From: Myxococcales bacterium
GTDB taxonomy: Bacteria; Myxococcota_A; Polyangia; Polyangiales; Polyangiaceae
DNA: 47,083 nucleotides
NCBI GenBank assembly: GCA_903642325.1
Contig: CAHJWM010000039.1
Coordinates: 1-47,083, forward strand
Reading direction: 5' to 3'
In this document: in pieces, positions 1 through 45,864 of the stretch
How the letters are laid out: each line of letters opens with the position of its first letter
How positions within the stretch are numbered: the first letter of the stretch is position 1
Program-made: the position numbers and the translations under genes
The notes under the pieces: generated by a model
Databases searched by the model: none
What the model was told of the DNA's origin: nothing
What the model saw: only the letters and a program-made list of their open reading frames with translations

Positions 1-122
1 GCTCCGCCGTCCGCCGCGCTCCGCCGTACCGCACTCCGCCGTCCGCCGCACTCGGCCGTCCGCCGCGCTCGGCCATCCGCCGCACTCCGCCGTCCGCCGC
101 ACTCCGCCGTCCCGTGCTCCGC
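1..122. repeat. 17-bp tandem repeat (about seven degenerate units)
   Basis: A GC-rich unit of the form GC(A/G)CTC(C/G)GCC(G/A)TCCGCC is repeated head to tail about seven times, the first two units being 15 bp long. The array enters the window from the left, so its true length is unknown. There are no spacers, which excludes CRISPR. The 260 bp that follow, up to the end of the epimerase gene, show no convincing gene; a short plus-strand frame at 294-524 looks like an antisense shadow. Confidence 0.7.
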
Positions 123-383
123 TATTTTTGCGCGGGGACACGCGAAGACAGTTCTCCCCCGCCGCACAAGCGCGCGTCGCTCCAGTAATCCGCGCTTTCA
201 GAGCCGCTCGAGATACGTCGAGATCATCGCGGGCGACGAAGTACCTGGTGACTTCGTCCCAAGAGGGCCGTCTTTGAGAGGGTTCGAGAGGTCTTGATGG
301 GCGCGCGCGCGGCCAATGATGGCGGAGCCTTCGGCGTCGGGCCTCGCCTCGCAAGAATGCCCAGCCGCAACGATGCGCGTCGA

Positions 384-1292
384 TTACGACGCTTGAATCA
401 CGGCGCGCAGGGCATCTCGCGCGGTGGGGTAACGGAAGGCGAAGCCGATTTTTTCGAGCGCGTGGGGGACGGCGTATTGACCGCCGAGAAGGGGCTCGGC
501 GCCTTCTCCGAACAATGCTTTTAGGGCGAAGCTTGGCGCTTTCAGGAAGCGCGGTCGGCCCAGGAGCTCGCCGATCACGACGCTTAGGTCGGCGTTGGAG
601 ATGGGCTCGGGGCCGCACACGTTCACGGGGCCGGACAGCTGGGGGTCGTCGATGCAGGCGATGAGGGCGGCAATCAGATCGTCTAGGTGGACCCAGGGGA
701 AGCCTTGTTTGCCCGAACCGATTGGACCACCGACGAACATTTTGAAGGGCCGGAGTAAGGATTCGACGGCGCCCCCGCGTTCACTCAGCACGGGCGCGAT
801 GCGCGCGCGGACTACGCGCACGCCGCTGCCTTCGGCGCGGCGGGCGGCGGCTTCCCAGGCCACACACACGAGCGCTAGGAAGTCACTGCCGGCGGGCGCG
901 CTTTCGTCCACGCGTTTGCTGTCGAGCGTAGAGCCGTAGTAGCCGGTGCCCGAGGCGCACACGAACACTTTCGGTTTGTGCTGCGCGCGTTCGATGGCGT
1001 GAACCAGCCACTCCGTGCTTTCGACGCGGCTTTTCAAGATGCCGCGCTTCACCTTTTCGGTGTAGCGCACGCCCACCGCTTGCTCACCGGACAGGTTGAC
1101 GATGGCGTCGTACACTTCCGATAGGGCGGCGCTGGACGGTTCGTCGGGTTGCCAGTGTTGATGGTGCTGGCCATTTCGGAGGCCTGCCGGTCCACGGGTG
1201 AGCACGGTCACGAAATCGCCACGGGCCAAGAGCGTGGAGACCAACGCTTGACCGATGAAGCCGCTACCACCAGCTACGAGAACGTGAGGCAT
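384..1292 (-). CDS. TIGR01777-family NAD-dependent epimerase (YfcH/SulA-like)
   Basis: A 302-residue Rossmann-fold protein of the extended SDR superfamily. The N-terminus MPHVLVAGGSGFIGQAL contains the GGSGFIG dinucleotide-binding loop, and the body has the TIGR01777 landmarks: VNLSGE near residue 85, a SRVEST helix, SGTGYYG, and an FPWVHLDDL segment. The length matches the family (about 300). The open frame extends 63 codons further upstream, but the family N-terminus begins exactly at the ATG at 1292, and the extension would run into the divergent gene. The substrate is unknown for most members; the family is loosely tied to cell division and nucleotide-sugar-like epimerases. The next gene is divergent, with an 82-bp spacer that should hold both promoters. 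Confidence 0.87.
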   Translation of the reverse strand: MPHVLVAGGSGFIGQALVSTLLARGDFVTVLTRGPAGLRNGQHHQHWQPDEPSSAALSEVYDAIVNLSGEQAVGVRYTEKVKRGILKSRVESTEWLVHAIERAQHKPKVFVCASGTGYYGSTLDSKRVDESAPAGSDFLALVCVAWEAAARRAEGSGVRVVRARIAPVLSERGGAVESLLRPFKMFVGGPIGSGKQGFPWVHLDDLIAALIACIDDPQLSGPVNVCGPEPISNADLSVVIGELLGRPRFLKAPSFALKALFGEGAEPLLGGQYAVPHALEKIGFAFRYPTARDALRAVIQAS

Positions 1293-29445: not shown

Positions 29446-29792
29446 GGGGGCGATCGGTTTCGACGTGGGGACTGAAGGATAATCTGCGTGTAAGCGGCTC
29501 CCATCCCGCTTCATCAAATGGGCCGTATAATTGCGAACGACAACGCAATCGCTCTCGCAGCCTGAAAAACTGACGATAGCCGTCCGACCGTGAGATAGCT
29601 TTTGTAACGGAAGGGCGTCAGCACTAAAGCTGGGTGGCCGAGCGCGTCTCGGGTTCGGCCGCCGAGAAACACCGAGGCTAGGTCGTGGCCGAATCCACGA
29701 ACTCCTGCCGGCGGGGGCAACCACCGGCTACGCACGTGAACGAAGATTATCTCGATGCCTTGCGGACCCGGGTTCAATTCCCGGCGCCTCCA
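29446..29792 (+). ncRNA. ssrA: transfer-messenger RNA (tmRNA)
   Basis: A 347-nt one-piece tmRNA that rescues stalled ribosomes and tags the nascent protein for proteolysis. The 5' end GGGGGCGATCGGTTTCGACG pairs its first seven bases with CGCCTCC at 29785-29791 (one G-U), leaving A as discriminator. The T-arm contains GGGTTCAATTCCC. The tag frame at 29533-29565 encodes ANDNAIALAA and TGA. A sigma-70-like promoter precedes it. The 3' end doubles as the attachment site of mobile DNA (copy at 30585-30616); the insertion has kept the acceptor stem intact. Confidence 0.95.
29533..29565 (+). other. tmRNA tag-peptide reading frame
   Basis: Resume codon GCG is followed by codons giving A-N-D-N-A-I-A-L-A-A and a TGA stop. 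The ANDN start and ALAA end match the usual proteobacterial form recognised by SspB/ClpXP-type proteases. Confidence 0.88.
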
Positions 29793-29793
29793 C
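29762..29793 (+). repeat. att site copy 1 (3' end of ssrA)
   Basis: A 32-nt stretch covering the T-arm and acceptor end of tmRNA is repeated without mismatch at 30585-30616. The 3' ends of tRNA and tmRNA genes are the standard targets of tyrosine integrases, and an integrase gene lies next to copy 2. This copy is the functional ssrA end. Confidence 0.88.
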
Positions 29794-30388: not shown

Positions 30389-30573
30389 ACCCGAAGCCGA
30401 TCGAGCACGCCAACACGCCGGACCTGGCCCTCGCGCTCCCTGCCCTTCGGCGCGCGCGGAAGCGAGCCGAGGAGATCGCGATTGCGACCAACACCGCCCT
30501 AATCCAGGTCGAGAACGGCGAGGTCGTCCGGGTTCAGCCGCGCGCTCAGGGCGAACGCGACGTGACCACGTAG
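30385..30573 (+). CDS. small protein coupled to zeta toxin, candidate antitoxin
   Basis: A 62-residue protein whose ATG overlaps the toxin stop (ATGA), so translation is coupled. The middle is a basic amphipathic helix (ALPALRRARKRAEEIAIATN), the C-terminal part a short beta-like segment (ALIQVENGEVVRVQP). No family is recognised, and it does not resemble the epsilon antitoxin, which usually precedes its toxin. Partner or antitoxin function is inferred only from the overlap. It ends 11 bp before att copy 2. Confidence 0.65.
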   Translation: MNPKPIEHANTPDLALALPALRRARKRAEEIAIATNTALIQVENGEVVRVQPRAQGERDVTT

Positions 30574-30584
30574 CGTTACGCCGC

Positions 30585-30616
30585 GCGGACCCGGGTTCAA
30601 TTCCCGGCGCCTCCAC
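30585..30616 (+). repeat. att site copy 2
   Basis: An exact 32-nt copy of the ssrA 3' end. Flanks on both sides differ from copy 1 (after it comes TGAAATACC instead of AGACAGTG), so the duplication ends sharply. It separates the toxin cassette from the integrase gene and is read through by the integrase frame on the other strand. Confidence 0.88.
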
Positions 30617-30636
30617 TGAAATACCTCGCGTTTTGG

Positions 30637-30652
30637 GCCTGCTTCGGCAGGC
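30637..30652. other. UUCG-loop hairpin beside att copy 2
   Basis: GCCTGC-TTCG-GCAGGC forms a stable 6-bp stem with a TTCG tetraloop 20 bp beyond att copy 2. It may help end transcripts coming out of the toxin cassette or be a recombination-site structure. Confidence 0.45.
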
Positions 30653-30673
30653 ATGACATGAGGCGCGACATGA

Positions 30674-30696
30674 ACGGCCGCCAACTTGGCGGCCGT
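30674..30696 (+). terminator. strong hairpin terminator within the integrase tail
   Basis: A 9-bp perfect stem ACGGCCGCC / GGCGGCCGT around AACTT is followed by TTGCGTTT on the plus strand. It would stop transcription leaving the toxin cassette before it runs antisense into the integrase gene. Confidence 0.65.
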
Positions 30697-30730
30697 TTGC
30701 GTTTGGGCGATCGAGGCGGCGGGCGCTAGG

Positions 30731-30820
30731 GCCGGCTGGGGCGACGAGACCTCGGCGAGCGCCGGCTGGGGCGAAGCCACCTCAGCGAGCGCCGGCTGGG
30801 GCGAAGCCACCTCAGCGAGC
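30731..30820. repeat. three 30-bp tandem repeats in the integrase tail
   Basis: Three adjacent 30-bp units beginning GCCGGCTGGGGCGA; units 2 and 3 are identical, unit 1 differs at a few sites. The length is a multiple of three and each unit encodes a ten-residue Ala/Glu/Pro segment of the integrase C-terminal extension, so copy number can vary without breaking the frame. Confidence 0.85.
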
Positions 30821-31926
30821 ACGGGGGGCTTCTGGCTGTAGTCCAGGCAAACTATGGCTTCGCACAGCGGCTGCCAATCGAAGTGCGTGTACTGGTCGAT
30901 GATCGAGCCCTTCGCGTTGTGCGTGATGCATTCGAGGACGTCCGCCCGCGCCCCGCCGCGACGGGTCAAGCTGATCATGGTGTGGCGCGTCAGGTGACAG
31001 CCCTCAAAGCGAACGCCGACGGCCTGGCAGGCGCGAGCCAGCGCCTTGTATGCGCTGGATTTCGTGTGCGCGCCGCGGCCCTGCGAGCGGGGACGGCGGT
31101 TCGGCACGATGAAGTCGTCCCGCACCGGCTTACGGCAGTAGACGAGCTCGAAGCCCTCGTTCACCACCGCTCGAGGCACTCTGCGAGCTGCGGATGCACC
31201 GGTACCATTCTAGTCTGGTCAGTCTTGAGGGGTTCATCGCTGTACTGAGTGACCACGTTCATGCTCCCGAGCGGTTTTGCGTCCGCGTCCCAATCACGCC
31301 AACGCCGGCCGCATGCCTCACCCTCCCGCACGCCCATGTACAACATCATCGCGAAGAGCACGCGCGCTGGCGCCGGCACGCGCTCGTCCTCCAGGAGCGT
31401 GCCTACCTCTTGCCGCGAGTATACATTGCGAACCGTGCGCGGGGGTTTCGGGAGAAGCTTGCGCGGGAGTTCAGAGAACGGGTCCGACGCAATGACCCCT
31501 TCGAGCTTCGCATCGCGAAACATCGTTCGCACGACGCCGCGAATGTTGCTTGCTGTGCTTGCTGCGAGCAGGTTGCCGCGCACCTGTTCCGCGAGGCCGC
31601 GAACGAACGCGTGCGCCTCGCGTGCTCCAATCTCGTTCATGCGGATCGTTGGACCGAAGTGCGGCTCGAAGTAGTCGCGTAAGCGCTGACGGTCGTCGTT
31701 CGCCGTCCGATTTGTTCGAGTAGCGCCCCAAGACCTGGCGAAACTTGCCGCCGTGACGGCACCCGTTCGTCGAGCTTGCGGCTGGAACTTTTCTTCGCGG
31801 ATTTCGCGCCGGATGCGTGCCTCGACGCGCGATGCCTCGCGCTTGTCCGTGCCCACGAGCTCGTTGTACTGACGGCCCTTGAACATCGCCGTCGCGTAGT
31901 AAACGATCTTACCGCCGGCTCTTTTT

Positions 31927-32430
31927 CTAGCGAACATGGTGCTCTCCAATCCATCGAACGACTTCAGACCGTCGGAAGCGCCACGGGCGGCCCACCTTCA
32001 CGCCCGGCAAACCGAACTTGTGATGCCACTCCACAACTGTCTTTGACGACACACCAAGCAGTTGCGTGACACCGGCCATCGTTAGGATCTCGCCTTCAAG
32101 ATCGACCGGCGTCGTCAAGTCGCGACGCAGCGCGGTGAACTCATCACGTAAAGCGCTGAACGCAGCGAACACCAGCTCGAGTCCGACTGGCGTTTCTGGA
32201 TGTTGGAGGTTCCCCACTCGCCCCCGCGCACGGCTGGCGCGGTACTGGCTCAAGTCCGCGGGTGCAGGTCCGCCAGCGTGCTGGGTAAACCCGCCATTCG
32301 TCCTTGCGGATGGTGAGCGACCGGCTCTCGTCGTGCGCCGCAATGCAGCATCACGCAGCTCCGACACTGGCCCGCTCGCCTGTGGTGGGAGCGCCCCGTG
32401 GCGCCCCCGCTGATTTTTTCGTATAGACAT
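31927..32430 (-). CDS. HTH (excisionase/AlpA-type) DNA-binding protein
   Basis: A 167-residue protein. The first 85 residues are basic and low-complexity. The C-terminal part is a helix-turn-helix of the HTH_17/excisionase type: MAGVTQLLGVSSKTVVEWHH followed by the wing VGRPWRFRRSEVVRWI. Such proteins bend DNA and steer integrase towards excision or control element genes. It sits directly upstream of and overlaps the integrase gene by 11 bp, the usual xis-int order. The start is uncertain; a shorter product containing only the HTH would also work. Confidence 0.78.
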   Translation of the reverse strand: MSIRKNQRGRHGALPPQASGPVSELRDAALRRTTRAGRSPSARTNGGFTQHAGGPAPADLSQYRASRARGRVGNLQHPETPVGLELVFAAFSALRDEFTALRRDLTTPVDLEGEILTMAGVTQLLGVSSKTVVEWHHKFGLPGVKVGRPWRFRRSEVVRWIGEHHVR

Positions 32431-36797: not shown

Positions 36798-37139
36798 ATG
36801 AAAGCTTCTCACGCACCGGAATGTTGCGCCCCGGCGGTTGAAGGCCCTGATCTTAGGCCTGTCGAAGGCGCAAAGGCAGACGAAGAATTGGCCGAGCTGG
36901 CCAAAGCCATCGGGCACTCTGCGCGGGTGCAAATCCTAAGACTGCTCGCGCGTAAAACGGCCTGCGTATGCGGAGAAATCGTCGAAGAATTGCCGCTTGC
37001 GCAGTCGACCGTATCCCAGCACCTCAAGGTGTTGAAAGAGTGCGGTTTGATTCGCGGCGACGTGGATGGCCCACGAGTTTGCTACTGCATTGAACCGCGA
37101 GCTCTGCGGCGCCTCAAGGCGCTCGTCGGCAGCCTCTAA
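36798..37139 (+). CDS. arsR: ArsR-family arsenic-responsive repressor
   Basis: A 113-residue winged-helix repressor. [18 protein letters not shown] leads into the metal-sensing helix segment [20 protein letters not shown], where the CVC pair matches the CVCDL arsenite site of classical ArsR; the recognition helix and wing follow ([17 protein letters not shown]). An N-terminal ECCAP adds further thiols. As(III) binding should release the operator at 36757-36776. It begins the plus-strand arsenic operon. Confidence 0.92.
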
Positions 37140-37172
37140 CCGTCAACTTACGTTAAAGGAAGTGCCAGGAAC

Positions 37173-37271
37173 ATGCCCGTGCTCCAAGCATTCGAGCCCA
37201 CAACTGCTAGCCGCGACGCCAAGCTGGTGAACGACCACGAAGAAGTCCCGCTCTTGCGGAGTGCAAATTAA
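37173..37271 (+). CDS. possible 32-residue protein between arsR and aquaporin gene
   Basis: ATG 37173 preceded by AAAGGAAG opens a 32-codon frame (MPVLQAFEPTTASRDAKLVN and on) whose TAA abuts the aquaporin GTG with no gap. That arrangement suggests translational coupling or a leader. It resembles no known family and could also be the N-terminal relic of a lost gene. Confidence 0.4.
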   Translation: MPVLQAFEPTTASRDAKLVNDHEEVPLLRSAN

Positions 37272-38003
37272 GTGAACGACATCTCGATCACTCGGCGCCT
37301 CGCATCGGAGGCGGTCGGTACGGCATTTCTTTTGGCAACGGTCGTCGGCTCAGGAATCATGGCGCAGCGCCTGGCCGGCGGAAACGTGGCCATCGCGCTG
37401 CTCGCCAACACGATCGCCACTGGCGCGGGTCTCGTGGCGCTCATCCTCACGTTCGGCCCGGTGAGTGGCGCTCACTTCAACCCAGCGGTCACCCTCGCGG
37501 ACGCGGCAATGGGGGGCCTAGCATGGCGCGACGTACTTCCCTACACTGCAGCGCAGCTCCTTGGGGCATTCGCGGGCGTCGCCGCTGCGCACGTGATGTT
37601 CAGTGAAGCGTTCTTTTCGGCGTCGCAGCATGTTCGGAGCGGTCCCGCGCAGCTGGTCAGTGAGTTTGTCGCCACGTTCGGCCTACTGTCCGTGATCTGG
37701 GGCGTCTCCAGACGCCACGGGCACTACACCCCCTTTGCCGTTGGGGCGTACATCACTGCCGCGTATTGGTTCACAGCATCCACGTCGTTCGCGAACCCAG
37801 CGGTGACGTTGGCCCGCGCCGCAAGCAACACCTTCGCTGGCATACGGCCTGTTGATGCGCCAGGCTTCATTGTTGCACAGCTGGTGGGAGCGGCTGCGGC
37901 GACGGCGCTGTTCCGTTGGCTGGTACCGTCGCTGCCGCAGACGGCTGGTCGTGTCGTGGACGGCGCGCCCGACTCTGAGAGAGCGCGCTCGCATAGCGCC
38001 TGA
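37272..38003 (+). CDS. aqpS: aquaglyceroporin (MIP family), AqpS-like
   Basis: A 243-residue channel with six helices and two half-helices. The two NPA boxes are GAHFNPAVTLADAA and SFANPAVTLARAA. Aquaglyceroporins in ars operons (AqpS) let arsenite, formed by ArsC inside the cell, leave down its gradient, replacing ArsB or Acr3. Neither of those pumps is present here, which supports that role. The GTG start directly follows the stop of the short upstream frame; later starts would cut into helix 1. Confidence 0.9.
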   Translation: MNDISITRRLASEAVGTAFLLATVVGSGIMAQRLAGGNVAIALLANTIATGAGLVALILTFGPVSGAHFNPAVTLADAAMGGLAWRDVLPYTAAQLLGAFAGVAAAHVMFSEAFFSASQHVRSGPAQLVSEFVATFGLLSVIWGVSRRHGHYTPFAVGAYITAAYWFTASTSFANPAVTLARAASNTFAGIRPVDAPGFIVAQLVGAAAATALFRWLVPSLPQTAGRVVDGAPDSERARSHSA

Positions 38004-38028
38004 ATCACTAGGTCAGACAAGGATATCA

Positions 38029-38427
38029 ATGAAAACCGTACTATTTGCATGCATTCACAACGCGGGCCGCTCACAAATGGCCGCTGCGTGGTTCAACGCG
38101 CTGGCTGATGAGTCGAAGGCGCGCGCGATTTCGGCGGGCACAGAGCCTGGAACTCGTGTTCACCCCGAAGTGCTGACAGCAATGCGCGAGGTCAACATCG
38201 AGCTCGAAGGGGTCGAACCGCAGAAGCTGACCGACGAGCTCGCAGCCACCGCGACGATCCTGATCACGATGGGGTGCGGCGAGGCGTGTCCGGTGGTGCC
38301 AGGACTCAGGCGCATGGACTGGCCGCTCGAGGACCCCAAAGGCAAGCCAGTCGAGCGAGTGCGTGAGATCCGCGATGACGTGAAGTCCCGGGTTTCAGCC
38401 TTGCTCGAAGCAGAGCACTGGCGCTGA
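38029..38427 (+). CDS. arsC: arsenate reductase, thioredoxin/LMW-phosphatase type
   Basis: A 132-residue enzyme reducing arsenate to arsenite. The active-site P-loop CIHNAGRSQMA (Cys-x5-Arg) is at residues 8-18; a second Cys pair region, ITMGCGEACPVVPG, supplies the redox cysteines, and MDWPLEDPKG carries the conserved Asp-Pro. The pattern is that of the thioredoxin-coupled ArsC of Staphylococcus and Bacillus. The ATG at 38029 has AAGGA upstream; the open frame reaches further up but overlaps the aquaporin gene. It forms one operon with its neighbours. Confidence 0.93.
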   Translation: MKTVLFACIHNAGRSQMAAAWFNALADESKARAISAGTEPGTRVHPEVLTAMREVNIELEGVEPQKLTDELAATATILITMGCGEACPVVPGLRRMDWPLEDPKGKPVERVREIRDDVKSRVSALLEAEHWR

Positions 38428-38478
38428 TTCTTTGCGTCCTTTTCCCGGACCTTCTGTCTTCATAGGCAGGAGGTCACG

Positions 38479-39312
38479 ATGGTCAGTTCATCCGCAGACG
38501 AAGTTCGAAATACAGTCCGTGAACACTATGGGAAGGTCGCTGAGACCAATGGCACCGTTGGATGTTCGCCAGGGTGTTGCAGTCCGGGCGCAAATAGCAG
38601 CGTCGCACTCGGGTACTCGTCAGACGAGCTCGCTTCCGTCCCCGACGGCTCGAATCTCGGCCTTGGCTGCGGCAACCCGCAGGCCATGGCGGCTCTGCGA
38701 GCGGGCGAGACTGTGCTTGATTTAGGTAGTGGTGCCGGATTCGACTGCTTCCTCGCGGCTCGCCAGGTCGGTCCTACCGGTCGGGCCATTGGGGTCGACA
38801 TGACCCCGCAGATGGTCGCGAAGGCACGCGACAACGCTCGAAGAGCTGGCGTGACCAACGTCGATTTCCGCCTTGGAGAGATCGAGCACCTCCCGGTCCT
38901 GGACGCGTCCGTGGACGTCATTCTGTCCAACTGCGTGATCAACCTCTCACCAATCAAGGCCGAGGTAATTCGAGAAGCGTTTCGAGTGCTGCGGCCGGGC
39001 GGACGCTTGGCAATTTCCGATGTCGTCGCCACTGCACCGATCCCGGAACGGCTTCGCGGAACGGACTCGGCGTTGACCGGTTGCATCGGCGGAGCCGCGC
39101 ACGTGGACGAGCTCGAAAGAATGCTGACCGAGACCGGGTTTGCCGGAGTTGCCGTGCGACCTCGTCCCGAAAGCCGCGAGTTCATCAAGGATTGGATGCC
39201 CGAAAGCGGGATTGAGGAGTACGTCGCCTCCGCCACAGTGGAAGCGGTCAAACCGGCGGCTGTCCGTTCGTGCTGCGGCCCCGAGTGTTGCACACCGGGA
39301 GCAACTCAGTAG
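38479..39312 (+). CDS. arsM: arsenite S-adenosylmethionine methyltransferase
   Basis: A 277-residue methyltransferase. SAM-binding motif I is VLDLGSGAGFDCFLAARQVG; the As(III)-binding cysteines lie in CSPGCC (early), SNCVINLS and LTGCIGGA. It methylates arsenite stepwise to volatile or less toxic forms. The C-terminal tail has CCGPECCTPG, a possible extra arsenic-binding site. A strong AGGAGGT site lies before the ATG. Its stop TAG overlaps the GTG start of the sigma gene. Confidence 0.94.
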   Translation: MVSSSADEVRNTVREHYGKVAETNGTVGCSPGCCSPGANSSVALGYSSDELASVPDGSNLGLGCGNPQAMAALRAGETVLDLGSGAGFDCFLAARQVGPTGRAIGVDMTPQMVAKARDNARRAGVTNVDFRLGEIEHLPVLDASVDVILSNCVINLSPIKAEVIREAFRVLRPGGRLAISDVVATAPIPERLRGTDSALTGCIGGAAHVDELERMLTETGFAGVAVRPRPESREFIKDWMPESGIEEYVASATVEAVKPAAVRSCCGPECCTPGATQ

Positions 39313-39881
39313 TGATAAGCGACGACGCGCGCTGCGCTTATCGAGAGCTCGAGGAACGCCTTCGGCCCTTCGTTGCGCGGCGCGTGCCGACCTCGGACGT
39401 CGAAGACGTCCTGCAAGACGTCTTCGTGCGCGCGCAGCGCGCGCTCCCCGAGCTTCGCGACGATCAGCGGTTTGGTCCGTGGATGTACCGCATTGCTCGA
39501 AGCGCGATCGCCGAGAGCCACCGTCAGCGATCGCGTCATCCAGTCGTCGAAGTGGATGACGCCAACTCCGCCGTTGCGAGCGAGGGCGGTGGTCCGACCG
39601 CGCTAGAGACTGAGGTTGCCGAATACCTCGTGACGCTAGTCGGTCGGCTGCCGTCGCCCTACCGCGAGGCGCTCACGCTCTCCGAACTCGAAGGGCTCAC
39701 CCAGCAAGCTGCGGCTGATGCGCTCGGAATCACGTTGTCCGGCGCAAAGTCTCGGATTCAACGGGGACGTGAGAAGCTGCGCGGCCTGCTCGACGATTGT
39801 TGCCGCATCGGTGTCGATGCACGAGGGCAAGTCATCGACTGCGAACCGCGCCAGCCCGGTTGCTGCTGCAAGAGCGAATAA
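39312..39881 (+). CDS. SigZ-like ECF sigma factor with Cys-rich tail
   Basis: A 189-residue sigma factor read from the GTG at 39312, which overlaps the arsM stop (TAGTG). Region 2 is VPTSDVEDVLQDVFVRAQRA with FGPWMYRIARSAIAESHRQR; region 4 is LPSPYREALTLSELEGLTQQ and GITLSGAKSRIQRGREKLR. The tail DDCCRIGVDARGQVIDCEPR then PGCCCKSE matches the SigZ form with six cysteines, which could sense As(III) directly. No anti-sigma gene is nearby. Being the last gene of the operon, it may amplify the response or act on other promoters. Confidence 0.87.
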   Translation: MISDDARCAYRELEERLRPFVARRVPTSDVEDVLQDVFVRAQRALPELRDDQRFGPWMYRIARSAIAESHRQRSRHPVVEVDDANSAVASEGGGPTALETEVAEYLVTLVGRLPSPYREALTLSELEGLTQQAAADALGITLSGAKSRIQRGREKLRGLLDDCCRIGVDARGQVIDCEPRQPGCCCKSE

Positions 39882-39907
39882 CCCGTGGTGATCGCAGTTG
39901 GCACCGG

Positions 39908-40573
39908 TCACAGGACTGCTTTCGCGGCAGTCTGCGCCACCAGCTTTGCGGCGGCCTCTTTTCGCTCGCTGTGGCGATCGGTCAGGTAGTCGGTGTGGTC
40001 TCGTAGTAGCAGCGTGAACTTGTAGAGCTCTTCCATTACGTCGACCACGCGGTCGCGATACGACGAATCCTTCATGCGACCGTCGTCATCGAACTGCTCG
40101 TACGCCTTTGCAACCGATGACTGATTGGGGATGGTGAACATCCTCATCCACCGGCCAAGCAGGCGAAGCGAGTTGACGGCGTTGAACGATTGCGAACCAC
40201 CACTCACTTGCATCACCGCTAGCGTTCGCCCTTGCGTGGGCCGAACGGCGCCGATGTTGAGCGGGATCCAGTCGATCTGGTTTTTGAGAACGCCGGTGAC
40301 GGCGCCATGACGCTCAGGCGACGTCCAAACTTGACCCTCCGACCATTCGCACAGGCCTCTGAGCTCGACCACCTTCGGATGTTCGGCGGGCACGCTGTCG
40401 CACAAGGGCAGCTCCATCGGGTCGTAAAAGCGGGTCTCGGCGCCCATTTCGGTGATAATCCGTGCCCCCTCCTCGGCAAGCAGGCGACTATACGATCGCT
40501 TTCTCAAGGACCCGTATAGAAAGAGGATCCGGGGCTTGTGTGGCGACGAGGAGTCCGTGAGTGACTGGGTCAT
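39908..40573 (-). CDS. arsH: ArsH, NADPH-dependent FMN oxidoreductase
   Basis: A 221-residue flavodoxin-like protein. The FMN loop [19 protein letters not shown] near residues 17-35, the [13 protein letters not shown] segment, and [20 protein letters not shown] are ArsH landmarks. ArsH oxidises trivalent organoarsenicals to less toxic pentavalent forms, complementing ArsM. It follows arsR2 on the minus strand by 13 bp, so these form one unit, convergent with the main ars operon. The ATG is at 40573. Confidence 0.94.
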
Positions 40574-40586
40574 CTCAATATCCTGA

Positions 40587-40895
40587 TCAGGGCGAGCCCT
40601 TGCCGCCGCGCTTGCAGCAGTCTTGCCAGAGGTAGTTTGTCAGCCCGCGGAGCGATTCGTAGTCAGCGGCGTAGAAATGGAACGTGCCTTCCTGGCGGCT
40701 GATCAGCATCTCGGCATCGAGCAGTCGCTTCAAATGGTGGCTGAGCGTGGATGCAGGAAGTTCAACGTGACTCTGAATCTCACCCGCGGCGCTTCCGTGC
40801 TCACCGCCTTGCACGATGAATCGCAAGATTGCTAGGCGCACGGGATGGCCAAGCGCAGCGAGCTGATCGGCGTGGTAGTTAACTTTTGACGTCAC
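40587..40895 (-). CDS. second ArsR-family repressor
   Basis: A 102-residue winged-helix repressor from GTG 40895, with GGAAG upstream; the longer frame lacks family sequence and would cover the operator. Core: [20 protein letters not shown], with [20 protein letters not shown] as recognition helix and wing. It lacks the CVC pair of the first ArsR; the only vicinal cysteines are in the tail (WQDCCKRGG), placing it in the group with a C-terminal As(III) site. It probably controls arsH and itself through the palindrome just upstream. Confidence 0.88.
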
Positions 40896-40900
40896 GGGAC

Positions 40901-40922
40901 TTCTTCCAATATTATGGAAGAA
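40901..40922 (-). promoter_or_regulatory. probable operator of the arsR2-arsH unit
   Basis: Arms TTCTTCCA and TGGAAGAA flank a 6-nt AT spacer as a perfect inverted repeat, ending 6 bp before the arsR2 GTG. It differs in sequence from the palindrome ahead of arsR, so the two repressors probably have separate sites. Confidence 0.65.
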
Positions 40923-41269
40923 TGCTGGCGGGCCGCAAGCGACTTTCGCCATGGGCGCCACACCCTGCTCGAGTCAGCAATCGTCTGCGGCTGATTAACG
41001 CTCGAACCGATGCCTGCGCAGCTTTGGGCTGAGCGACGCGTGCTCCGTTTCTCGTTCCCCTCGCGTCAGAGGGGCGGCGGCTTGGCAGCAACTGGAATGG
41101 CTGCGGTAGAGCCTGCACGCTGCGTCGTGTCCTCTGTGTGCGCTGCGGAACATCGCTGAGCACCTAGTCCGAAGTGAGCGGCTGCTCGACGTACCTTATC
41201 GCTTTCTTTTGCCGCGCGAAGACTTTAAAGTCTAGGGTTTCTGTAATCACAAGCGAAGTGGGGACATCG
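40923..41269. other. intergenic region before the helicase gene
   Basis: About 350 bp with no gene visible. It should contain the promoters of the divergent arsR2-arsH unit (left edge) and the helicase gene (right edge). The helicase frame is open through part of it, but the matching sequence starts only at 41270. Confidence 0.5.
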
Positions 41270-43054
41270 ATGGCGTTCATAAGCAATCCGAACATCCAAG
41301 CCAATGCGCAATTGCGCATTCCGCAACGAGAAGCATGTGCCGCAATACGTGATCACTTTGCTCGGGCAGATGCGCCGCGTGAGGTGGGCATCGTGCTGCC
41401 CGTAGGTTGCGGAAAGTCCGGGCTCATCGCCATCACACCGTTTGCAATGGAGGCGCGACGAGTGCTCGTGATCGCTCCAGGACTGCGCATTCGCAAGCAG
41501 CTCGGGGACGACCTGAAGGCGAGCAGTCACACAAACTTCTTCAAGCGTACCGGCGTACTCACAAATGATCAGGCGTTTCCAGAAGCTGCTGTTATCGAGA
41601 GCGGGCGCATCAACGCTGACGACCTGCGAAATTCCGATTTTGCGGTCGCCAACATTCACCAGGTCGCGGGTGAGGACAATCGGTGGCTCGGTCAGCTTGA
41701 GGCCGATTTCTTCGATCTAATCCTGGTCGACGAGGCGCATCACAATCCGGCCGCGAGTTGGCAGCAAGTGAAGGAAAGGTTTCCGAGCGCGCGCATCGTG
41801 AACTACAGCGGGACGCCAACCCGCGCCGACGGGCGCGTCATGGACGGCGCAATTATTTATTCCTTCTCCGTCGTGCGGGCGATCCAAGCAGGATACGTGA
41901 AGCGCTTGCGCGCAAAGATGCTCCGCCCCACGTCGCTCAGATACGTCGACCCGAGCGACGGGCAGCAGCGCACGATTGGACCAGACGAGGTCAGAGCGCT
42001 CGGGGAAAATGATGCGGCCTTCCGGCGCGGCATCGTTATGGCGGAAGAAACGTTGGGGTCAATCGTGGACTGCGCTATTGCGGAGCTACTGCGCCTGCGG
42101 CAGGAGACCGGCGAACCACGTCTCAAAATTATCGCATCCGCGCTGAATCAGGCCCACTGCATCCAGATAACAGAGGCTTTCCGAGCGCGCTCAATGCGCG
42201 CGGCCTACGTACACTCGCAGGAGGGAGGCGCTACCAATGACGCCGTTTTCGGGAGGCTGGATCGGGACGAGTTGGACGTCATCGTCCAAGCCAGAATGCT
42301 CAACGAAGGGTTTGACCATCGGTATCTGTCAGTCGCGATGGTCGGCAGCATTTTTGCGAATCTCGGCCCCTTCGTTCAATTCGTCGGTCGCGTGATGCGC
42401 GCGATCGAACAGGATGCCCCGGGCCACCCGTTGAATCAGGGCGTCGTCGTCTTCCACGCTGGCGCGAACGTCGCAAGCCGCTGGAACGACTTTCGAGAAT
42501 TCAGCGAAGCAGACCAGCTTTTCTTCGCTGACCTTCTTCCCGCTGCGGAGAACGTCGAGTTCGATAGCAATGAGGTTGTCGAGCGTGAGCCCGGCGCCGG
42601 AGGCGGTGTGGTTCCCGTGGAAATTTTGGAGGAGCTCGACGTCAGAGTCTCCGAGATGAATCCGATCGGAGACCCGGAGGTCTTGGCGCTTTTTCGCCAG
42701 CTTGCCGAGCGGGGCATCACCCCCGAGCAGGCGGCGCAAGGAATACAGCGCATGCGGCGCGACCGTCAGGACGTGCGCGAGGCGCGACGCGCAGCCCTCA
42801 ACGATCGCGTGCAGAACGACGCTGGCGGCATCCTCGCCCGCCTGAACATCAGCCCGCGAGGTAAGACGCTGGATCGGGCGCGAAGGCTACAGAACTTTGC
42901 CTGGACGGCGGCGGAGCTCCATCGACGAGTGAACGCTGCGGCAAACGGCGAGCTCGACAACCGACAGAACTTCACTCTCGATCAGGTAAACGCGGCACAC
43001 GACGCACTCCCCGGCATTGTCGCGGCCTTGGAAGCGGAACTCGGCCATGGGTAA
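41270..43054 (+). CDS. DEAH-box superfamily II helicase (ResIII-like)
   Basis: A 594-residue protein from ATG 41270, after GTGGGGA; the frame extends 32 codons upstream without family signal. Motif I is VLPVGCGKSGLIA (near residue 48), motif II ILVDEAHHNPA, motif III YSGTPTR, and the second domain has ARMLNEGFDHRYLS and motif VI FVQFVGRVMRA. After about residue 400 comes an Asp/Glu/Arg-rich helical C-terminal region without a visible nuclease motif. Helicases of this type occur in restriction and phage-defence systems. The next small gene overlaps its end by 8 bp, so they act together. Confidence 0.85.
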   Translation: MAFISNPNIQANAQLRIPQREACAAIRDHFARADAPREVGIVLPVGCGKSGLIAITPFAMEARRVLVIAPGLRIRKQLGDDLKASSHTNFFKRTGVLTNDQAFPEAAVIESGRINADDLRNSDFAVANIHQVAGEDNRWLGQLEADFFDLILVDEAHHNPAASWQQVKERFPSARIVNYSGTPTRADGRVMDGAIIYSFSVVRAIQAGYVKRLRAKMLRPTSLRYVDPSDGQQRTIGPDEVRALGENDAAFRRGIVMAEETLGSIVDCAIAELLRLRQETGEPRLKIIASALNQAHCIQITEAFRARSMRAAYVHSQEGGATNDAVFGRLDRDELDVIVQARMLNEGFDHRYLSVAMVGSIFANLGPFVQFVGRVMRAIEQDAPGHPLNQGVVVFHAGANVASRWNDFREFSEADQLFFADLLPAAENVEFDSNEVVEREPGAGGGVVPVEILEELDVRVSEMNPIGDPEVLALFRQLAERGITPEQAAQGIQRMRRDRQDVREARRAALNDRVQNDAGGILARLNISPRGKTLDRARRLQNFAWTAAELHRRVNAAANGELDNRQNFTLDQVNAAHDALPGIVAALEAELGHG

Positions 43055-43283
43055 GTCCGTAGTTGTAAGCATGGAGGTCACGACCGCAAAAAGCTCACAC
43101 AACTGCCGCTTCAATAAGAAGCACCGCATTTGCATGGGCGATGCGCGCCTGACCATTAAAGAAGATGGCTCGCCGCTGAACTATTGCCTGCCGTGCGCTC
43201 GCGCGTTTCTCACGAAGGGATTGGAGCGACTGAGTGAACTACAAGCTCAGGTGGATAAGCGACTCACGAACAACGCGAAGTAG
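43047..43283 (+). CDS. small Cys-rich protein overlapping the helicase gene
   Basis: A 78-residue protein starting inside the helicase stop region (8-bp overlap). Four cysteines, C20, C29, C47 and C50 (NCRFNKKHRIC and NYCLPCARAF), form a likely zinc-binding knuckle. The N- and C-terminal thirds are helical and charged. No family recognised. Overlap implies co-translation with the helicase, suggesting a partner that guides or regulates it. Confidence 0.65.
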   Translation: MGKSVVVSMEVTTAKSSHNCRFNKKHRICMGDARLTIKEDGSPLNYCLPCARAFLTKGLERLSELQAQVDKRLTNNAK

Positions 43284-43332: not shown

Positions 43333-43548
43333 TTAGAACGGATCGGGGTGCGCTGGGTAGGCCAAGGTTCTCAGAGCTAGCGCCGCGAGTTCGGCGCTCT
43401 CGGCCGGGCTCAGCGCGTCAATGTCATCGAATCGCGCACGCGCTGCGCGTCGTTCGGCCGCTCGCTCGCGGGCCGTGGCTTCAGTCCTTCGAGCGTGCTC
43501 TCGCCCCGATGAAGCGAAGCGTTCGATACTGCTTAGTGATGCAAAAAC
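43333..43548 (-). pseudogene. 3' part of the gene interrupted by IS66
   Basis: In the minus strand, from the IS edge, the frame reads VFASLSSIERFASSGREHAR, then a Glu/Arg/Ala-rich helix and DIDALSPAESAELAALALRT, ending LAYPAHPDPF and TAA at 43333-43335. Taken with the 5' part at 45857-46695 and with one target copy removed, the frame is continuous across the IS. It is the separated C-terminal end of the HTH_36 protein. Confidence 0.8.
43541..43548. repeat. IS66 target-site duplication, left copy
   Basis: GCAAAAAC directly borders the left inverted repeat and is repeated at 45857-45864. Eight base pairs is the usual IS66-family duplication length. Confidence 0.9.
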
Positions 43549-43577
43549 GTAACCTTTCTCCCTGTCCCGTCCTGACG
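43549..43577. repeat. IS66 terminal inverted repeat, left
   Basis: A 29-bp end, the inverse complement of 45828-45856 with two mismatches. Confidence 0.9.
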
Positions 43578-43593
43578 CCGGGATCTACGTGAG

Positions 43594-45093
43594 CTAGGGC
43601 GTCGGAGCGGGCTCGTCGGCGGTGAGTTGCCAGGGCATGAGCACCTCACCGCGGTCGGCGGCACGCACCGCTTCGAGTAGATAGCGGGTGGGCGCAACGT
43701 GGTGCAGCTTGGCTGTCTCGACGAGCGTGTAGAGCGTAGCGGCGACCTTGGTTCCCGCGCGCGACTTCGAGCCGTAGTGGTTTTTGCGCCCCACGACGGG
43801 ACCTCTGATCGCCCGCTCGGTGGCGTTGTTGTCGAGCGGAATTTGCGGATCACTGGTGAAGCGACTCAGACGATCCCAGTTCGCGATGGTGTACGCCGCT
43901 GCCTTGCCGATGGACAAGGTCTTGAGCACGGCCTGGCTCCAGAGCCATGTCTTCAGCTCTGCGAGTACAGCAGCGGCTTCGGTCTTTCGCAACTTGGCCT
44001 TGCTCTCGATGTCGGGCCCCGCGCGCTCGTCGATAGTGTAGAGCTGTCCGATCCAATCGAGAGCGAGTTGCGCATCCGGATGATTCGGGAGCGCCTCCTC
44101 GAATTTCCTGAACACGTGGGCCCAGCACCCTGCGAGCTGAATGTGCTCGTTACCTCGCGCACCAGCCTCGTGAGTTTTGAGCGCGTCGCACACGATCACT
44201 CCGCGGTATTTGCCAACCAAATCCCTGAACGTGTCGGCGCCTTTGTCATCGCGGATCTTGTGGCAGACGATGCCTGGGCCTGTGACACACCACATTTGCC
44301 ACGGCTTCTCGTCTTTTCCCTCGAGTCTCGGCCATCCTGTTTGATCGAGGCCGATCACCGAATGCGATAGCGCCTGTTGGAACAGCGCTTCGGCCGTAGA
44401 CGTCAGACGCTTGCCGAGCGCGAAGACCTGATCCCAGAGGGTTTGCGGCGTGACGACAACGCCGTGTCGCGCGAGGATGCGTTGCTGTCGCGCGAGCGGG
44501 ATATGGTCGAGGTACTTGTCGAGCGCCACCTTGATCGCGAAGGCGAGCGAGTAGCGCCCGCCCTTGATCGCGCGCTCGGGACCGAGCGCCGTTTCAACGC
44601 AGCCTCCACAGCGGCAAACGTACTTTTGCTGCTTGACGTGGACGAGGCGGTAACTGATTTCGACGAAGTCGACCATCTCGGACGACTCGAACTGCCCCGC
44701 CATCGGCTCGAGGCGCTCGCCACACGCGGGGCAGGCGCGGTCAGGCTCGTCGAGCTCGAACACCTTCTCGTCAATTGGCAGAGCAAGCTGCTCGGTTGGA
44801 CCCGACTTCGCCCGCGGCTTGCTCGACTTCTCGCCCTTCAGCGCTTCGTGCTGCTCAGCCTGATCTTTAGCCCGTTTCTGCAGCTGATTGAGCAGCGCCA
44901 GCGTTTGCTGCAGCTCCTGCGGATTTCCTTTCAGCGCCTTGAGCTCTTCGCATTTGGCGCTGAGCACGCGCAGGAGCTGCTCAATCTGCATCTGCTGCGC
45001 CATGGCGATACGACGGAGTTGCTCGACGTCGTTTTCGTGGCGCAGATCCACGTTGCTCTTTAGATCAGGTCGATCGCTCTTCTGCAAGCGCAA
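43594..45093 (-). CDS. tnpC: IS66 transposase TnpC
   Basis: A 499-residue DDE transposase. An N-terminal leucine-rich coiled coil (residues about 25-90) precedes a zinc-finger-like segment with ACPACGERLEPM and CRCGGC. The catalytic residues lie in VIGLDQTGWP (Asp), GVIVCDALKTHEAG (Asp) and NNATERAIRGPVVGRKN (Glu). Length and order agree with IS66 transposases (about 500). Its ATG overlaps the end of the tnpB frame by 29 bp. No damage is visible in this gene. Confidence 0.94.
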   Translation of the reverse strand: MRLQKSDRPDLKSNVDLRHENDVEQLRRIAMAQQMQIEQLLRVLSAKCEELKALKGNPQELQQTLALLNQLQKRAKDQAEQHEALKGEKSSKPRAKSGPTEQLALPIDEKVFELDEPDRACPACGERLEPMAGQFESSEMVDFVEISYRLVHVKQQKYVCRCGGCVETALGPERAIKGGRYSLAFAIKVALDKYLDHIPLARQQRILARHGVVVTPQTLWDQVFALGKRLTSTAEALFQQALSHSVIGLDQTGWPRLEGKDEKPWQMWCVTGPGIVCHKIRDDKGADTFRDLVGKYRGVIVCDALKTHEAGARGNEHIQLAGCWAHVFRKFEEALPNHPDAQLALDWIGQLYTIDERAGPDIESKAKLRKTEAAAVLAELKTWLWSQAVLKTLSIGKAAAYTIANWDRLSRFTSDPQIPLDNNATERAIRGPVVGRKNHYGSKSRAGTKVAATLYTLVETAKLHHVAPTRYLLEAVRAADRGEVLMPWQLTADEPAPTP

Positions 45094-45444
45094 TCGGCTT
45101 GATCACGCCCGGTGAAAGTGAACGCCGACCGACGAGCTCGCAGCCTTCGATGTACAGCGCCAGCTCGCTGGACGTGAGCTGAACGGGGCTGCCGTCTTCG
45201 CGGACAGTGACGCGAAGCAACCACCCTCCAAACGCTTCTGGAAAATGCAGAGTCCAGTGCCATCCCAAACCAGCACCTTGCAGCCGCGCCGTCGGCGATT
45301 GCTGAACAAGAACAAGTCGCCGCTCAATGGATCACGACTGAGCCCCTGCTTAACGAGGCCATACAGCCCATCGTACCCCTTGCGCAGATCAACGGGCGCT
45401 GGATACGCGAACACGCGCACGGCGCGACTGGTGCCCAAGATCAT
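45065..45444 (-). pseudogene. tnpB: IS66 accessory protein TnpB, frameshifted
   Basis: The first part VDLRKGYDGLYGLVKQGLSR and FSNRRRRGCKVLVWDGTGLC is the IS66 Orf2/TnpB family. Near 45210 the frame is lost; the right continuation is one frame over: REDGSPVQLTSSELALYIEG then CELVGRRSLSP, as in intact TnpB. A one-base loss explains this. It starts at ATG 45444, overlapping the tnpA stop (ATGA). TnpB is required for efficient transposition of several IS66 elements, so this copy may be immobile alone. Confidence 0.85.
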
Positions 45445-45782
45445 CCGAGCTCGCGCAGCAGCGCCGCGGCCTCCCCCGGTGTGAGACCGTCGATCCGAAA
45501 GCCGCCCGGCGACACCACACTCAGCGTGCGCACTGGCACCCTCGGAGCGACCACGCGCACGGGCACCAAGGCTTTCGTTTCACCGGCCTCGACACACCAC
45601 CGACGGACGGTATCGAACTGCTGTCCTAGCTCGAGCTTGATCTCTTCCCAGCTCGCTCCCGCCGCACGCCGGCCACGTGCCCACGTCACCACTCGAGCCC
45701 GAAGCTCCGCCGGATACCGCCTGCCCCGACCGGTCTCCACACGCCCCAGATCCCGCCGCAAAATTGCCGTTTCCTTGTCCAT
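45441..45782 (-). CDS. tnpA: IS66 accessory protein TnpA (HTH)
   Basis: A 113-residue protein with a helix-turn-helix region, RYPAELRARVVTWARGRRAA and FDTVRRWCVEAGE, then a beta-rich C-terminus with VVSPGGFRIDGLTPGEAAAL, typical of IS66 Orf1. The stop overlaps the tnpB start by the ATGA pattern, giving coupling. It lies just inside the right inverted repeat. Confidence 0.9.
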   Translation of the reverse strand: MDKETAILRRDLGRVETGRGRRYPAELRARVVTWARGRRAAGASWEEIKLELGQQFDTVRRWCVEAGETKALVPVRVVAPRVPVRTLSVVSPGGFRIDGLTPGEAAALLRELG

Positions 45783-45827
45783 GATCGCCGTCCTTTCGCG
45801 AACGACGCGAGCATGAGACGCCTACGA

Positions 45828-45856
45828 CGTCAGGACGGGGCAGAGAGAAAGGTTAC
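45828..45856. repeat. IS66 terminal inverted repeat, right
   Basis: The partner of 43549-43577, ending GGTTAC at 45856, followed at once by the right target copy. Confidence 0.9.
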
Positions 45857-45864
45857 GCAAAAAC
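45857..45864. repeat. IS66 target-site duplication, right copy
   Basis: GCAAAAAC, identical to 43541-43548. Confidence 0.9.

Follow-up and report, generated by a model that had tools for sequence, protein, structure and literature searches.

The window analysed here, a 47,083-nt stretch of a Myxococcales contig (CAHJWM010000039.1), carries two overlapping genes, flanked by an ars operon on one side and an IS66 element on the other, with no recognised replicon in the window (Table 1). The first gene encodes a predicted SF2 helicase and the second a small partner protein. Their reading as a two-gene unit with 8 bp in common, made in the initial annotation, stands as it was given: start and stop overlap in ATGGGTAA, an arrangement that suggests translational coupling of helicase and partner, and the same gene order recurs in all of the closest related loci. 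The open frame of the helicase extends upstream to a GTG at 41174, and homologues start at the position corresponding to 41270. A promoter scan gave no match.

The initial annotation had also placed the pair in an integrase-bearing island next to IS DNA, and both elements are present in the form of a split tyrosine integrase and an IS66-type element starting 264 bp downstream of the pair. The catalytic Arg region of the integrase and its C-terminal H-x-x-R...Y lie in different frames, reflecting either a frameshifted gene or a sequencing error. Insertion of the island at the tmRNA gene is not claimed, because a terminator-like hairpin lies directly behind that gene. The arsenic operon also holds an ECF sigma factor with a Cys-rich tail.

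Table 1. Features of the window and domains of the helicase model.
Feature	Position	Strand	Remarks
SF2 helicase/translocase (predicted), 594 aa	41270..43054	+	ATG at 41270, stop ends at 43054
Partner protein, 78 aa	43047..43283	+	ATG at 43047, stop ends at 43283
Start/stop overlap of helicase and partner, 8 bp	43047..43054	+	ATGGGTAA
Two RecA-like domains	helicase residues about 14-415		helicase model
Low-confidence linker	helicase residues about 426-490		helicase model
Helical C-terminal domain	helicase residues about 499-594		helicase model
tmRNA gene	29446-29793
Tyrosine integrase, split	31161-31949 and 30499-31179	minus	two overlapping frames
Arsenic operon	36798-40961		ArsR-type regulators, aquaporin-like channel, ArsC-like, ArsM-like, ArsH-like FMN reductase
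IS66-type element, complete-looking	43548-45857		33-nt terminal inverted repeats 43548-43580/45825-45857 (91%)

Sequence and predicted structure of the helicase

The helicase matches the Pfam family ResIII (3.9e-22; 79.4 bits against a cut-off of 22.5), which places it among the ResIII-type SF2 helicases, and Helicase_C at 4e-4, below the cut-off of that family. Motif I (PVGCGKS), motif II (DEAHH), S-x-TP-x-R and QFVGRxxR are nearly invariant across 64 relatives, and the predicted helicase activity is well supported by these motifs. No nuclease domain was found with Pfam in the protein, which begins at the helicase core, in agreement with its earlier description as a ResIII-type helicase without visible nuclease. 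The structural model (pLDDT 82) comprises two RecA domains and a helical C-terminal domain, and its nearest folds are RadD (YejH; Z 21, 21% identity over residues about 9-434) and then XPB, with HsdR and SauUSI also near. RadD and the window helicase have in common an SF2 core without a nuclease, but the latter scores 21.7 bits against the NCBIfam RadD equivalog cut-off of 720, and the window system differs further in its separate zinc-finger gene, its helical C-terminal domain and its mobile, sporadic occurrence. HsdR (type I restriction) and SauUSI (type IV) are built on a related SF2 translocase core; the window helicase, however, comes without a nuclease domain, methylase or specificity subunit, and reaches 34 bits with the EcoAI-type R model, for which the NCBIfam cut-off is 550. 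The archaeal XPB-Bax1 couple shows a similar fold and likewise joins an SF2 helicase to a dedicated partner, yet Bax1 is a nuclease and the window partner a small predicted zinc finger. The helicase core is also shared with phage DNA helicases (PHROG 16, 1.4e-35).

The combination of genes had been described as unlike recognised defence systems, and searches of PADLOC 2023 agree: no specific model fits the helicase, which obtains weak helicase-core matches alone (best 32 bits), and the partner has no match. Hachiman (HamA-HamB) embodies a comparable idea of two-gene, helicase-based defence, but neither HamA (DUF1837) nor HamB matches the window pair in PADLOC at E-values up to 1. No NCBIfam model fits either protein, and searches of an open-access literature library, protein accessions included, turned up no description, family name or tested function of the pair.

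The partner protein

The partner had initially been taken for a four-Cys protein. Cys20, Cys47 and Cys50 are indeed conserved, but Cys30 is not, which rules out a four-Cys zinc site; the fourth ligand falls to His26. The conserved ligands follow the pattern C20-x5-H26...C47-x2-C50, and C20, H26, L35, C47 and C50 are invariant in the clade of the window, so that the invariant ligands support the predicted binding of zinc within this clade. The partner model (pLDDT 90.3) consists of three strands and the zinc site, followed by a single long helix (residues 48-77). Zinc fingers of PARP-1 (Zn1/Zn2) and DNA ligase III make up almost all of its best Foldseek matches; most of these reach probabilities of 0.9-0.99, but their E-values are 0.26-1. 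Comparison with PARP-like fingers by VIA gave a Z of about 5, which is weak by the guide of the tool and is also scored by common small folds, and the PARP likeness is therefore taken as suggestive only. As in PARP-1 Zn1/Zn2 and DNA ligase III, two ligand pairs are arranged around a beta hairpin in the predicted fold, but PARP zinc fingers follow the pattern C-x2-C and H-x2-C, whereas the first pair of the window partner is C-x5-H and the second C-x2-C. The partner profile did not reach PARP sequences, a PDB sequence search returned nothing significant, and no Pfam family matched above its cut-off, zf-PARP (PF00645) included, which gave no match with the window protein and for which the best score reported was 17.2 bits in a relative against a gathering score of 39.3. 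The model is suggestive of a CCHC zinc finger of PARP-like fold. The zinc fingers of human PARP-1, a sensor of DNA breaks, and of DNA ligase III bind nicks and ends.

The role of small effector originally assigned to the partner was not supported by the analysis. What is conserved at the core of the protein is the predicted zinc site, set in a putative DNA-binding fold of PARP type; conserved catalytic residues are absent, which speaks against a nuclease or toxin, and some relatives retain a partner despite lost zinc ligands.

In one genome (G091), the partner profile matches the N-terminal end of a GAF/PAS-type protein, which does not represent the pair. A GAF/PAS-type sensor protein at L102:1441-3135 carries a partner-like zinc-finger motif N-terminally (E 1e-8).

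Conservation and distribution of the pair

Scans of 84,980 genomes yielded 80 loci, and scans of viral contigs 11. The clade holding the window pair (clade A) comprises the 51 closest loci, including six plasmids and 10 viral contigs, and extends over at least eight phyla (Pseudomonadota, Acidobacteriota, Myxococcota, Bacillota, Actinomycetota, Gemmatimonadota, Chlorobiota and Latescibacterota). Helicases without the partner, named beforehand as a possible refutation, were not encountered in this clade: all 51 loci keep the partner directly downstream of the helicase, most of them with an overlap of a few bases to 14 bp. Among close pairs with estimable dS, dN/dS is about 0.02-0.08 for the helicase and 0.06-0.25 for the partner, and both genes are under strong purifying selection. 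This recurrence and the low dN/dS values indicate that the pair is not a product of chance.

In each of 27 pair-bearing genomes, a search with the partner profile gave a single match, and this match adjoins the helicase. The partner is uncommon in samples of 377 and 398 genomes from two phyla, where both of the true matches not seen before (G032 and G714) lie behind a helicase of the family. Only three of the 377 genomes of the phylum have a match, the genome of the window included, and one of these matches is a sensor-kinase-like protein; among 58 relatives, a single one has a helicase match, which belongs to a different clade (36% identity). The pair is thus sporadic among relatives. The partner is retained at two loci of clade A whose helicase is frameshifted or carries in-frame stops, and it persists beside a frameshifted or degenerate helicase at L014 and L125. 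At L125:3789-5201 (Zymomonas pZZM404), the partner gene is intact beside a fragmented helicase.

Neighbouring genes and mobile carriage

For clade A, the PADLOC comparison covered the two genes closest to the pair on either side (128 proteins after filtering), which together gave matches to 145 models at 1e-10 or better, against 26 models for 128 control proteins from other windows of the same genomes (19 genomes); these are counts of redundant models and not of proteins, and among the matches listed, the best 25, those of the control are mostly housekeeping, such as a DndA/SspA-type desulfurase. Full-length IetA/IetS, PDC-S71, a type II methyltransferase and a ThsA-like protein are found among the neighbours. 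By the matches listed, the control windows lack these genes as well as the R-M, integrase and prophage genes that adjoin the pair. IetAS lies about 30 bp upstream of the pair at L011, and other loci feature PDC-S71 (L026, from Yersinia aldovae), a ThsA-like protein (L023), a type IIG enzyme (L066), a Stk2/PD-T4-6-like kinase (L042), a methyltransferase with a DpnII-type R (L003) or a BsuBI/PstI R-M system (L123). Many clade A loci have no PADLOC match among their nearest genes, the neighbours change from locus to locus, and no constant nuclease gene accompanies the pair. Known defence genes thus lie beside the pair in many genomes, as compared with the control windows, a feature expected of anti-phage defence systems in general. 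Since the models are redundant and the controls are unmatched for mobile content, the neighbourhood shows an association with defence islands and mobile elements, not a function, and defence genes may also come to adjoin the pair through carriage on the same mobile elements.

Relatives of the window helicase with up to 70% identity are found on plasmids. Mobilizable ColE2-type plasmids of about 6 kb carry the pair in Klebsiella, Salmonella, Serratia, Hafnia and Erwinia, and present the order rep, helicase, partner, with overlaps of 11 bp and then 8 bp and a rep protein of the Replicase + PriCT_1 type. E. coli plasmids sharing that rep are devoid of the helicase and the pair, which identifies the pair as cargo behind rep on ColE2-type plasmids and weakens plasmid replication helicase as its sole role. 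On Acinetobacter and Paracoccus plasmids, the pair adjoins R-M genes; on viral contigs, it lies near integrase, terminase and head genes, and integrases and resolvases recur among its neighbours.

The wider helicase family

Beyond clade A, the family was read from the tree and the neighbouring genes, and its more distant members carry a diverged partner, a 140-aa substitute partner or a fused HNH nuclease. In a second clade, HTH_17 is fused to the N-terminus of the helicase, as confirmed in long open frames, and the partner is of the CxxC...CxxC type; the Nocardiaceae group combines an HTH fusion with a partner that has no C50. An overlapping partner is kept at L052, L056, L061, L064 and L079, with H26 and C50 lost in most members. 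Because two sister groups keep a ligand-depleted partner, neither zinc nor end sensing can be the whole role of the partner. At L068 and L070, an HNH nuclease domain is fused to the N-terminus of the family helicase, and at L072-L078 the helicase is overlapped by a few bases, or adjoined, by a conserved, unrelated-looking 140-aa partner with a GVQPS motif. Across the family the helicase stays constant and the attached module varies, as would be expected of a part that aims or adapts the helicase rather than of an effector.

Discussion

The pair is real, old, conserved and nameless in the libraries searched, and joins an ordinary motor to an unusual partner with an unusual spread. Of its initial description as a possible defence pair, the defence-island association in relatives and the mobile context have been upheld, but not the small-effector role of the partner. 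With belief and doubt in about equal measure, we propose that the two genes form a compact and mobile module for defence, whose zinc finger would direct an ATP-driven translocase to invading DNA. The helicase, an SF2 enzyme of the RadD/XPB/HsdR type, would use ATP to translocate along double-stranded DNA, and the partner, probably translationally coupled to it and a putative PARP-like CCHC finger with a long helix, would bind the helicase and lead it to ends, nicks or branched replication structures in the DNA of an invading phage or competing plasmid. From such structures the complex would translocate, stripping or unwinding replication and repair intermediates or, alternatively, exposing them to host nucleases, the helicase having none of its own. 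It is the neighbourhood that points to an action against phages or mobile elements, the overlap and co-inheritance of the genes that suggest a complex, and the fold likeness that hints at recognition of ends or nicks; loss of the invader through translocation would be the presumed outcome. As a defence module it would be among the smaller ones (about 2 kb), compact enough for carriage on 6-kb plasmids, and would work without a nuclease.

The main rival explanation casts the pair as a helper in the replication or repair of mobile elements, a RadD-like helicase equipped with a detachable zinc finger that would assist plasmids and phages in completing replication or withstanding DNA damage. The closest fold is that of a repair protein, phage DNA helicases share the core, the helicase gene overlaps rep on ColE2-type plasmids, and the pair occurs in prophages by integrase and terminase genes. 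However, the pair is missing from E. coli plasmids that share this rep, is sporadic among relatives and repeatedly adjoins R-M, IetAS and other defence genes, and the window pair itself lies between an ars operon and IS66 without a recognised replicon, so that we regard this explanation as unlikely. Gene overlap with the small protein in second place, and a partner that is never alone in the genomes searched, would also agree with an abortive-infection pair, in which an antitoxin-like partner restrains a genotoxic helicase until infection frees it. The predicted fold of the partner is, however, DNA-binding-like, and its persistence beside broken helicases (L014 and L125) is compatible with an antitoxin role without being required by it; we deem this reading distinctly improbable. 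Very improbable, in our view, is a defence helicase that relies on a separate, unlinked nuclease and uses the partner as an adaptor, following a Hachiman-like or XPB-Bax1-like logic. XPB, whose nuclease partner is Bax1, is among the close folds, and two sister helicases (L068 and L070) bear a fused HNH domain, but the genes beside the pair vary by locus and include no constant nuclease.

A broader proposal is advanced tentatively and with more doubt than conviction. The pair may belong to a phylum-spanning, previously undescribed immune family directed against mobile genetic elements, whose SF2 translocase would be directed by interchangeable modules (PARP-like finger partner, fused excisionase-type HTH, fused HNH or 140-aa partner) and whose finger would be the bacterial counterpart of a eukaryotic DNA-break sensor used in immunity. 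If true, the PARP-like finger would tie DNA-break sensing to prokaryotic immunity.

In some public records, and often so, the partner gene is left unannotated; the public annotation of the pair today reads 'DEAD/DEAH box helicase family protein' and 'hypothetical protein'.
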